A stretch of 64,000 nucleotides of DNA from a virus. Location of the stretch: IMG/VR virus record IMGVR_UViG_3300021976_000006, positions 30,232-94,231 of that record, one strand, 5' to 3'. The translations under genes and the position numbers were made by a program. Positions 39,260-42,889 of the stretch are shown one piece after another. The notes under the pieces are model-generated. The model ran no database searches. It saw only the letters and a program-made list of their open reading frames with translations, and was not told the origin of the DNA. Numbering within the stretch: the stretch's first letter is position 1; every line of letters begins with the position of its first letter.

Positions 39260-39629
39260 GGGGGTGCCTGGTTTTGACATTTAGTGATTATTATATTTTC
39301 AGCGGTTGGAAGCTTATATACAACCTTAAAATTTTAAGTAAACAATAACAGGCAAAACAATTAAATTGTCAGAAACAACTTTCAACGATATAATGCGTCA
39401 AGTATCTAACGTTGAATTAGAAATGGCTGCGTAAGCAATCATTAGATTAGGATATTAAGGGATTTTTAACCTTCAACTTAAAATTCCATCATTTTCCCAA
39501 TTTAGATTAGTGTAAATTGGATAACTTTTTCTAGGTTTTTTGAATAAAAATCTAGTTATTTTGTTAAAAGCTGTAACAAGAGATATAGTATTTTTTAGAT
39601 GGACAAGGGTTCGACTCCCTTCACCTCCA
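39260..39629 (+). ncRNA. ssrA: Phage-encoded tmRNA (transfer-messenger RNA)
   Basis: The 5' end GGGGGTGCCTGGTTTTGACA and the 3' end with a T arm (AAGGG-TTCGACT-CCCTT) and CACCTCC-A form a tRNA-like domain; the 7-bp acceptor pairs 39260-39266 with 39622-39628. A tag frame begins at a GGC resume codon (39351) and ends at TAA (39432-39434). It encodes 27 residues starting GKTIKLSETT and ending VELEMAA. The final Ala-Ala is typical of degradation tags, but the tag is longer than the short tags usual in Bacteroidota. CCA is not encoded. tmRNA rescues stalled ribosomes with SmpB, which is not in this window. Confidence 0.85.
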
Positions 39630-39732
39630 CGTAATACCCTGATTATCAATTAATTAGATAATATTCTACACGTTTGATTAGCGTTGGGATAAATAAATCG
39701 ATCTGCTTGTAGGCTCAAGGTAACCTTCAATA

Positions 39733-39808: not shown

Positions 39809-40285
39809 ATGAAAAAGAAATTAGAATTAGATGATCAAACTGCAAGATCAATATATAAAATAGCAGATATAGCAACTAAATTAGTATTAGAATCTAACTG
39901 GGGAAAAGAATTTTTTAGTGAAAAATTATCTGATAGAATTAAATCGTATGTAGATGTTTGTAAAGAATTATGTAGACCTATTTTAACAATAAAAGATTTT
40001 AAATTTTTACCTGAAAATCAAAGAGCTAAAGCTTTAGCAAATCACCAATGGGAAAATATTAGTGAATTATTTAACCAAGGATGGAAACCAGATTTTACAA
40101 ATATAAATCAAGCTAAATATTATGTTTGGTATGAAAGAAAATCTACTGGTTGGGTGGTGTGCTACTTCAGCGATCGGGGCTACTATTCTATCTGTGGGTC
40201 TGGTTTTTACTTTAAAGATTCAGAAACAGCTTTATATGTAGCTAATACATTTTTACCAATAATGACCATTATTTTAGAACCATAG
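39809..40285 (+). CDS. DGR target protein 1 (158 aa) with C-terminal variable region
   Basis: The N-terminal 100 residues are helical (DDQTARSIYKIADIATKLVL), followed by NQGWKPDFTNINQAKYYVWY and a C-terminal domain of about 45 residues containing the variable region. Codons 113-134 carry the varied positions (GWVVCYFSDRGYY). The GC-rich patch at 40148-40206 contrasts with the AT-rich rest and reflects A-to-G/T/C changes relative to the template. It has no signal peptide or fibre features, so it is probably intracellular. It shares the KYY/WYP-W-F domain layout with target 2. Binding partner unknown. Confidence 0.8.
   Translation: MKKKLELDDQTARSIYKIADIATKLVLESNWGKEFFSEKLSDRIKSYVDVCKELCRPILTIKDFKFLPENQRAKALANHQWENISELFNQGWKPDFTNINQAKYYVWYERKSTGWVVCYFSDRGYYSICGSGFYFKDSETALYVANTFLPIMTIILEP
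40146..40210 (+). repeat. DGR variable repeat VR1
   Basis: 65 bp aligned without gaps to TR1 (40315-40379). There are 17 differences, 16 of them where TR1 has adenine and one C-to-T near the 3' end. TR1 has 23 adenines, so about two thirds are substituted. It lies in the 3' part of target gene 1. Confidence 0.9.
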
Positions 40286-40404
40286 GGTTACATATTTTAC
40301 TTATAGTTTTATATCTAGTTAGGTAGTGAACTACTACAACAATCAGAACTACAATTCTAACTATGAGTCTAGTTTCTACTCAATAATAAATACTAATATG
40401 AACC
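40286..40404 (+). repeat. DGR template repeat TR1 within a stem-bounded RNA
   Basis: The template itself is 40315-40379. It contains AAC/AAT codons in the target frame and an in-frame TAG that becomes TGG in VR1, so it is not itself translated. The segment starts at the base after the target stop codon and is bounded by an inverted repeat, GGTT-(A)-CATATT (40286-40296) with AATATGAACC (40395-40404). A further hairpin, CACC-TCTT-GGTG, and an AAGACATT/AATGTCTT stem follow before the RT gene. Confidence 0.85.
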
Positions 40405-40482
40405 TCACCTCTTGGTGAAAAAAAGCGAAATCCAGAAAAGACATTAGTATATTAATAGAAAATGTCTTATGTTGAGTAAAAA

Positions 40483-41439
40483 ATGAAAAGAATAAATAAC
40501 CTCTATAATGATATTTGTAGTATTAATAATCTTATTCTAGCTGATAAAAAAGCTAGAATAGGAAAGTTAAAACAACTAGATATTATAAAACACGATAAAG
40601 CAAAAGGATGTAATATTTTAAAACTTCATAATATATTAATGGAGGAAAAATATAAAACATCTAAATATCATATATTTACTATATATGAAGGTAAGAAAAG
40701 AGAAATATATAAATTACCATATTATCCTGATAGAATAGTTCATCATGCTATTATGAATAAACTTGAATCTATTTTTGTATCTATATTTATTTCTAATACA
40801 TTTAATTGTATTAAAAATAGAGGAATAATGGGAGCTTATAAAGCTGTTAAAAAATCATTATTAGATATAGAAAATACTCAATATTGTTTAAAATTAGATA
40901 TAAGAAAATTTTATCCTAATATTAATAATAATATTTTAAAACTATTATTAAGAAAAAAGTTCAAAGATGAAAAATTACTAAAATTATTAGATGAAATTAT
41001 TAATAGTACAAAAGGACTACCAATTGGAAATTATTTAAGTCAATATTTTGCTAATTTTTATTTAACATATTTTGATCATTGGTTAAAAGAAATTAAAGGT
41101 GTTAAATATTATTTTAGATATTGTGATGATTTAGTTATATTATCTAGTAATAAGGAATATTTACATTTGCTATTTTTAGATATTCAAGATTATTTATCAA
41201 ATATATTAAAATTAGAAATTAAAAAAAACTATCAAATATTTCCAGTTAATATAAGAGGTATTGATTTTGTTGGTTATAAATTTTATCATAAATATATTTT
41301 ACTTAGAAAATCTATAAAGAAAAGATTCATTAAAGTTGCAAAATATAGTAAAGCTATACAATCATTAGCTGCTTATTTTGGATGGTTAAAATATTGTAAT
41401 AGCATAAACTTAAGAAATAAATATTTAAAAGATGAATAA
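40483..41439 (+). CDS. DGR reverse transcriptase (318 aa)
   Basis: Motifs in order: LKLDIRKFYPNI (motif A), IGNYLSQ (about residues 181-187, the [IVL]GxxxSQ form that marks DGR reverse transcriptases rather than the QGxxxSP of group II introns), YFRYCDDLVIL (YxDD catalytic box near residue 213), IDFVGYKF, and a C-terminal FGWLKYCNSINL. The enzyme copies the template RNA with errors at adenines. No maturase or endonuclease domain is attached, and no separate accessory gene (Avd) is visible. It overlaps target 2 by 8 nt. Confidence 0.92.
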   Translation: MKRINNLYNDICSINNLILADKKARIGKLKQLDIIKHDKAKGCNILKLHNILMEEKYKTSKYHIFTIYEGKKREIYKLPYYPDRIVHHAIMNKLESIFVSIFISNTFNCIKNRGIMGAYKAVKKSLLDIENTQYCLKLDIRKFYPNINNNILKLLLRKKFKDEKLLKLLDEIINSTKGLPIGNYLSQYFANFYLTYFDHWLKEIKGVKYYFRYCDDLVILSSNKEYLHLLFLDIQDYLSNILKLEIKKNYQIFPVNIRGIDFVGYKFYHKYILLRKSIKKRFIKVAKYSKAIQSLAAYFGWLKYCNSINLRNKYLKDE

Positions 41440-41827
41440 GAAAGAAGCAGAAAAAGCTTTAAATAAGCTACAATTAGAAGTTAATAAACTCAGAGATATA
41501 ATAGATGCTCCTGAAAGTTTATTTGATATTACTACATATACAGAAGTATGTAAAAGATTAAATATTACAGAGAAGTCTTTAAGTGAATTTGAAACTCTTA
41601 AAGAGTATAGATACCATCAGATATTAAATATTCAGAAATTATTCAATGAAGATGCTGTAAATCCTAGATGGTATCCTTGGTTCTCTAGAACTGGTTCTGG
41701 TCTGGTTTTCTTCATTTCTTCCTGCTTCAGTGACTGCTACTATGGGCAGGTTGCTTACTTCAAAGATAAAAAAACCTCTGATTATATAGGTAAGACATTT
41801 AAATTTATCTATAACGATTTAAAATAA
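41432..41827 (+). CDS. DGR target protein 2 (131 aa) with C-terminal variable region
   Basis: An N-terminal coiled coil (KKEAEKALNKLQLEVNKLRD) and helical region precede NPRWYPWF, then the variable region (residues about 86-109, TGSGLVFFISSCFSDCYYG) and a constant C-terminus VAYFKDKKTSDYIGKTF. It overlaps the RT gene by 8 nt and is followed by its own template. It has no export or fibre signals. Shorter than target 1, and similar to it mainly in the C-terminal domain. Confidence 0.8.
   Translation: MNKKEAEKALNKLQLEVNKLRDIIDAPESLFDITTYTEVCKRLNITEKSLSEFETLKEYRYHQILNIQKLFNEDAVNPRWYPWFSRTGSGLVFFISSCFSDCYYGQVAYFKDKKTSDYIGKTFKFIYNDLK
41689..41756 (+). repeat. DGR variable repeat VR2
   Basis: 68 bp aligned without gaps to TR2 (41846-41913): 18 differences, all 18 at template adenines (26 adenines available). 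Changes are to G, T and C, as expected for adenine-specific mutagenesis rather than drift. The flanks diverge on both sides, with a 2-nt offset downstream. Confidence 0.92.
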
Positions 41828-41834
41828 TAATATA

Positions 41835-41939
41835 GGTCAATATTAAACTAGTTCTAGTCTAGTTTTCAACAATTCTAACTACAACAATGACAACTACAAT
41901 GAGCAAGTTACTTTTACTTTAACAATATTGATGTTGACC
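41835..41939 (+). repeat. DGR template repeat TR2 within a stem-bounded RNA
   Basis: The template core is 41846-41913. In the target frame it is rich in AAC/AAT codons, the usual diversification codons. It is bounded by GGTCAATATT (41835-41844) and AATATT-GATG-TTGACC (41924-41939), an inverted repeat with a 4-nt bulge. It lies 8 nt after the target 2 stop. Confidence 0.85.
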
Positions 41940-42041
41940 ATAGCTCTTGCTAAAAAAATAAAATTAATAAAAAAGTCTTTAGTAATATTTATGAAAGAGA
42001 CTTATAAAAGTAAAATTAATATTAAAAACCTAAATTAAATA

Positions 42042-42530: not shown

Positions 42531-42642
42531 CCAGTAAAATGTGCCTTTTTAAGGTAGAGGAACAATAACGTATTTGAGTAGCCAAAAGCTAATGTCAAAT
42601 GGAACAACCTCATAGCTTCATTTAGTTATCAATTTACACCCA

Positions 42643-42749
42643 GGTAGGATAGTATAAATTATATATAAAATACTTTGATATTTTATATATTTCTGGAATT
42701 ACGATAGGCTCGTTGTCTTATTGATGGTGATTCGAGTTCACCTCCTACA
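42643..42749 (+). ncRNA. tRNA-like element with canonical T arm (107 nt)
   Basis: GGTAGGA at 42643 pairs (6 of 7) with TCCTACA at 42743, next to a perfect T arm GGTGA-TTCGAGT-TCACC. The middle does not form a normal D or anticodon arm; an 11-bp hairpin TATATAAAATA/TATTTTATATA is found instead. It may be a degenerate tRNA, a disrupted tRNA or a tRNA mimic. Confidence 0.4.
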
Positions 42750-42844
42750 ACAAAGTAGTAATACTTAGTAAGTTGATTATCTGATCTTACTTTAAATAAA
42801 ACAGGTTGTGGTTAAGTGATGAAAGATTTGTGAAATAAATGGTT

Positions 42845-42873
42845 AACTGGTAGGTAGTTTTTATCTACCAGTT
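42845..42873 (+). promoter_or_regulatory. Leader hairpin before the 233-aa gene
   Basis: AACTGGTAG (42845-42853) pairs with CTACCAGTT (42865-42873), a 9-bp stem ending 16 nt before the ATG. The rest of the gap 42,531-42,889 holds the tRNA-like element and a 6-bp AGTAAG/CTTACT hairpin, and no gene. Confidence 0.4.
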
Positions 42874-42889
42874 ATTTAAAATAAAAAAT

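Follow-up and report, generated by a model that had tools for sequence, protein, structure and literature searches.

The locus described here raises the question of whether one reverse transcriptase (RT) can serve two separate templates within a diversity-generating retroelement (DGR), and what kind of protein such an element diversifies. The window, that is, the whole stretch of 64,000 nucleotides that was analysed, corresponds to bases 30232-94231 of a virus record of 94,231 bp. The source genome is assigned to the crAss-like phages because of its portal, terminase and DNA polymerase profiles and the matches of its RT to gut crAss-like phages. The cassette is located on the + strand, and the portal and terminase genes are on the - strand. 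Directly upstream of the cassette is a tmRNA gene (39260-39630); a tmRNA near a gene of phrog_11581, the target family described below, can also be found in several gut crAss-like relatives. Another stretch of the window (42540-42880, ~340 bp) is without a long open reading frame (ORF) and has a tRNA T-arm-like sequence near 42730, with no match in Rfam.

Two template/variable pairs are evident. VR1 (40146..40210, + strand), the variable region of the target gene T1, differs from its template repeat TR1 (40315..40379, + strand) at 17 sites over 65 bp, 16 of which are template adenines (P = 5.6e-9, hypergeometric test). VR2 (41688..41756, + strand), the variable region of the target gene T2, differs from TR2 (41845..41913, + strand) at template adenines only, with 18 of 18 differences at A over the 68 nt considered in the first-pass annotation, an earlier reading of the letters alone in which the A-bias of both pairs had been claimed. 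The two pairs have detector scores of 41.1 and 44.4, and the best scores in shuffles of the same DNA are 13.9-16.6; a record-wide scan for TRs gave 41.1 and 39.8 versus a shuffled maximum of 9.8-12.2. When the pairs are crossed, VR1 with TR2 and VR2 with TR1 show no match beyond ~60% of the non-A bases. The TR adenines are mainly at codon positions 1 and 2 of the target frames. TR1 has an in-frame TAG where VR1 has TGG, which is unusual for a template; with its A left unmutated, T1 would often be truncated. No third match to TR1 or TR2 was found in the 94,231-bp record, and exact searches of viral contigs with TR1 and TR2, made for population variation, gave no match.

The RT gene (40483..41439, + strand) encodes 318 amino acids and carries both IGNYLSQ and YCDD, in agreement with the earlier claim of a DGR-type RT with the [IVL]GxxxSQ and YxDD motifs. 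It matches RVT_1 in Pfam (1.7e-14), the PHROG reverse transcriptase family (7e-99) and, in PDB, 8ub7 'Reverse transcriptase' (7.5e-36), which we take to be the DGR RT of the Bordetella phage BPP-1. The window resembles BPP-1 in its RT (31.5% identity over 97%) and in the A-specific TR-VR differences; the DGR of BPP-1 has Avd, one TR and a lectin-fold tail protein, Mtd. The closest relatives of the RT share at most 67% identity, and RTs of single-TR relatives that adjoin TR/VR pairs share 61-67%. In the RT tree, loci group by target type, and the window RT is nearest to the type with phrog_11581 targets, a placement without support. The gene order T1-TR1-RT-T2-TR2 was confirmed, and no accessory Avd-like gene was recognised within the cassette, as had also been described.

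We have observed that the stretch from TR to RT aligns in 52 related loci and folds into short helices, with compensatory changes in 9 of the 9 predicted pairs. A covariance model, R1, was built from the sequences of these 52 relatives, none being taken from the window. Within the 94-kb record R1 matches only directly after TR1 (40381..40485, + strand; 46.7 bits, E = 2.5e-7) and directly after TR2 (41916..42014, + strand; 41.5 bits, E = 3e-6), and these matches are the predicted 3′ structured parts of template RNAs 1 and 2. Because the same covarying spacer RNA is also found behind TR2, TR2 is, on the evidence of sequence, a complete second template despite having no RT gene behind it. The finding of a spacer RNA copy at each TR upholds the earlier reading of one RT with two complete template/target pairs, and also, together with the lack of cross-matching between the pairs, the claim that each target has its own template and shares none. 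The two-cassette arrangement, which the first-pass annotation proposed to search for in related contigs, was not found in the related loci: R1 matches exactly once per locus in 74 of the 74, a count that is given for copy number per locus and includes the 52 model-training loci and some near-duplicates. R1 also matches the DGR loci of gut crAss-like phages. The Rfam family RT-18 (RF03021) has a match at 40406-40482 (44.6 bits, above the gathering score) and misses spacer 2. Since this match coincides with spacer 1, RF03021 appears to be a DGR template-RNA spacer. One locus in Dysgonomonas sp. PH5-45 (L180:3610-5371) has two similar TRs with a single spacer RNA and may be partly duplicated. An apparent second TR at another locus (L018) was rejected, as it is a VR-to-VR match.

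T1 (39809..40285, + strand) encodes a protein of 158 amino acids that belongs to phrog_11581, a family of unknown function (E = 3.6e-12). T2 (41432..41827, + strand; 131 amino acids) is a paralogue of T1 (BLASTP, E = 1e-10) and, having no PHROG match of its own, joins phrog_11581 through T1. The distance from the end of the VR to the stop codon is 24 and 22 codons in the window, and the family median is 25. With T1 or T2 alone as the query no match was found among viral contigs, nor was one found for T2 in the phage collection, and a search of plasmids gave no match; the family was traced via T1 homologues in the gut crAss-like phages cr60_1 and cr109_1. A single-round family HMM was used, since an iterated version had drifted onto targets of 116 nt and was discarded. 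When the RT relatives in viral contigs and genomes were examined, ~71 loci in addition to that of the window proved to have a VR within a phrog_11581-family member, usually with one to three tandem family genes on one TR. By these sequence comparisons, small phrog_11581 proteins are diversified by many DGRs of Bacteroidota phages and prophages. These ~71 Bacteroidota loci share with the window an RT of up to 67% identity, the same spacer RNA, the target family and the VR position, but each has a single TR-spacer unit, and in most of them the RT is followed by a ~100-aa ORF.

The same family is also diversified at a distance. Five gut crAss-like phages have a small phrog_11581-family protein, encoded in the early block, with a remote second VR (cr52_1, L102:3228-3290; cr53_1, L104:3201-3264; cr56_1, L101:3228-3292; cr60_1, L098:3207-3269; cr115_1, L105:3199-3263), which matches the single TR beside a tail gene and the RT, with 12-16 differences at A sites and 0-2 at others. 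A TR adjoining the T1 homologues of cr60_1 and cr109_1 was looked for and is absent; the VR matches a remote TR instead. Similarly, the remote VR and the TR differ at 19 A sites and 0 others in LoVEphage, at 15 and 1 in phage Versailles, and at 13 and 0 in Bacteroides phage BT-TP2, and the diversified protein of LoVEphage is a member of phrog_11581 (3.6e-47). In BT-TP2 (L107:2890-3255, L197) the family gene, which contains the clean VR, has no annotation, and the ends of the deposited record divide it into two parts.

T1 and T2 might be virion proteins for the tail or receptor binding, in which case the cassette would be an ordinary tropism-switching DGR with a duplicated target gene. Phage DGRs mostly diversify tail proteins (PMC8144416), and in gut crAss-like phages one TR is used for both a tail protein and a phrog_11581-family protein. 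The VR part of the LoVEphage and Versailles homologues also matches the end of the tail family phrog_5302, but this match is limited to 45-48 residues around the VR. Furthermore, in crAss-like phages and LoVEphage the family genes are separated from those for the tail, and in related cassettes they are beside replication genes. No tail family matches were obtained for T1 or T2, and the 94-kb record has no third VR of any kind; as this linear record may not be complete, a VR in a tail gene could be located beyond its ends. Structure models were obtained with AlphaFold2 for T1 (pLDDT 91.7) and a relative, L024 (pLDDT 87.1). Both are mostly helical with one hairpin, and in the T1 model the VR corresponds to the second hairpin strand and the following loop. 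Comparison of the two models with PDB gave nothing better than E = 0.5, and the C-type lectin fold is absent among the matches listed; matches in a viral structure library are unnamed phage proteins, several of them from crAss-like phages. The predicted fold of T1 and L024 is thus not obviously a C-type lectin, the VR loop being modelled with the lowest certainty in both, and the models speak against a lectin-type tail protein. We consider a virion role rather unlikely, and T1 and T2 are probably proteins outside the virion and not tail fibres. The neighbours in four related cassettes include genes for an anti-repressor, methyltransferase, replication initiation, resolvase, exonuclease, transposition ATPase and primase. 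These are early or replication genes, a setting that resembles those described for Quimbyvirus (PMC8008677) and four gut prophages (PMC12629997). From gene neighbourhood alone, we hypothesize a counter-defence role for the T proteins.

We then consider whether both units are functional. A ~100-aa ORF is found directly 3′ of the RT in 64 of the 72 related loci (e.g., L035:5950-6246, L139:6950-7252 and L146:6950-7246, which match phrog_19665, of unknown function, and nothing in Pfam) and is possibly a substitute for Avd. No such ORF was found in the window's record, so the cassette may be weakened here or may depend on another factor. It could accordingly be argued that the whole cassette is silent, or that TR1-T1 alone is active and TR2-T2 is a relic of duplication, the more so as the spacer of TR2 has a slightly lower score and no Rfam match. 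However, a relic would collect non-A differences and VR2/TR2 has none, base pairing is preserved in spacer 2, the reading frame of T2 is open, and both RT motifs are intact, all of which make such decay improbable. An assembly artefact or a chance similarity is scarcely credible for the second unit: the cassette is known from a single virus record with no close relative in the collections searched, but the pairs score ~2.5 to 4 times the best shuffled score, TR1 differs from TR2 and T1 from T2 with both frames open, and the spacer RNA model matches at both predicted places.

The reading that we favor, and consider likely, is that of a two-template crAss-like DGR in which one RT serves separate TR1-T1 and TR2-T2 channels with probably non-virion targets. 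The RT would read two template RNAs, each consisting of a TR and its 3′ structured spacer. A-mutagenised cDNA from TR1 would replace VR1 in T1, and that from TR2 would replace VR2 in T2; copying of the TR RNA with errors at A and transfer of the cDNA into its own VR would follow from established DGR biology. The two channels should not cross because the non-A bases of TR1 and TR2 have diverged. The cassette is of the widespread Bacteroidota type, with one to three tandem phrog_11581 targets on one TR before the RT, and differs in having another target-TR-spacer unit behind the RT. The variable hairpin and loop of T1 and T2 would bind a changing host ligand, perhaps inside the cell and plausibly a defence component. 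We infer the activity of both units and the separation of the channels in vivo, as well as the ligand and function of the T proteins.

Parts of this arrangement have precedents. Among 271 DGRs with multiple VRs, ~80% have one TR and roughly a fifth have more (PMC6642488). Two zeta crAss-like phages, Lera and ct1yV3, have three TR-VR pairs, two of which show non-A differences (PMC12386605). They share with the window the crAss-like affiliation and the presence of more than one TR-VR pair, but their targets are tail fibres and they have Avd genes (PMC12386605). A distal, probably non-structural second DGR target has been described in Quimbyvirus (PMC8008677), and four gut prophages have distal second VRs near counter-defence genes (PMC12629997). 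The window resembles the Quimbyvirus and LoVEphage type in that the diversified protein is probably non-structural and lies among methyltransferase, nuclease and tRNA-ligase genes. In that type and in the four gut prophages, however, one TR serves a distal second gene in addition to a structural gene, whereas the window has two TRs, and T1 and T2 both belong to the small family. The papers on crAss-like DGRs that were consulted, including PMC12386605, give the targets as tail or receptor-binding proteins. In the literature searched, mostly non-subscription, phrog_11581 is nowhere named as a family of DGR targets, and we saw no account of the remote VR of gut crAss-like phages or of a DGR in which two phrog_11581-type paralogues are served by two TR-spacer units. 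Thus, precedents exist for multiple TRs and for distal second targets, and what is new here is the combination of no detected tail target with two distinct templates.

A single RT combined with two independent template RNAs offers a natural experiment on template recognition by DGR RTs, with the spacer conserved and the TR free to change. Distal second VRs that had been reported separately can be linked through phrog_11581, a single protein family that spans phages of Bacteroidota. The C-type lectin fold is near-universal among DGR targets (PMC8144416), and phrog_11581 may depart from this rule as a well-populated family of DGR targets with another predicted fold. It is possible, and we suggest it tentatively, that the DGR in the window is devoted wholly to intracellular proteins that are neither virion components nor C-type lectins, and that through its two template RNAs it would provide an antibody-like repertoire against host defence. 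If the T proteins do act inside the cell, DGRs would serve phage counter-defence and not tropism only.
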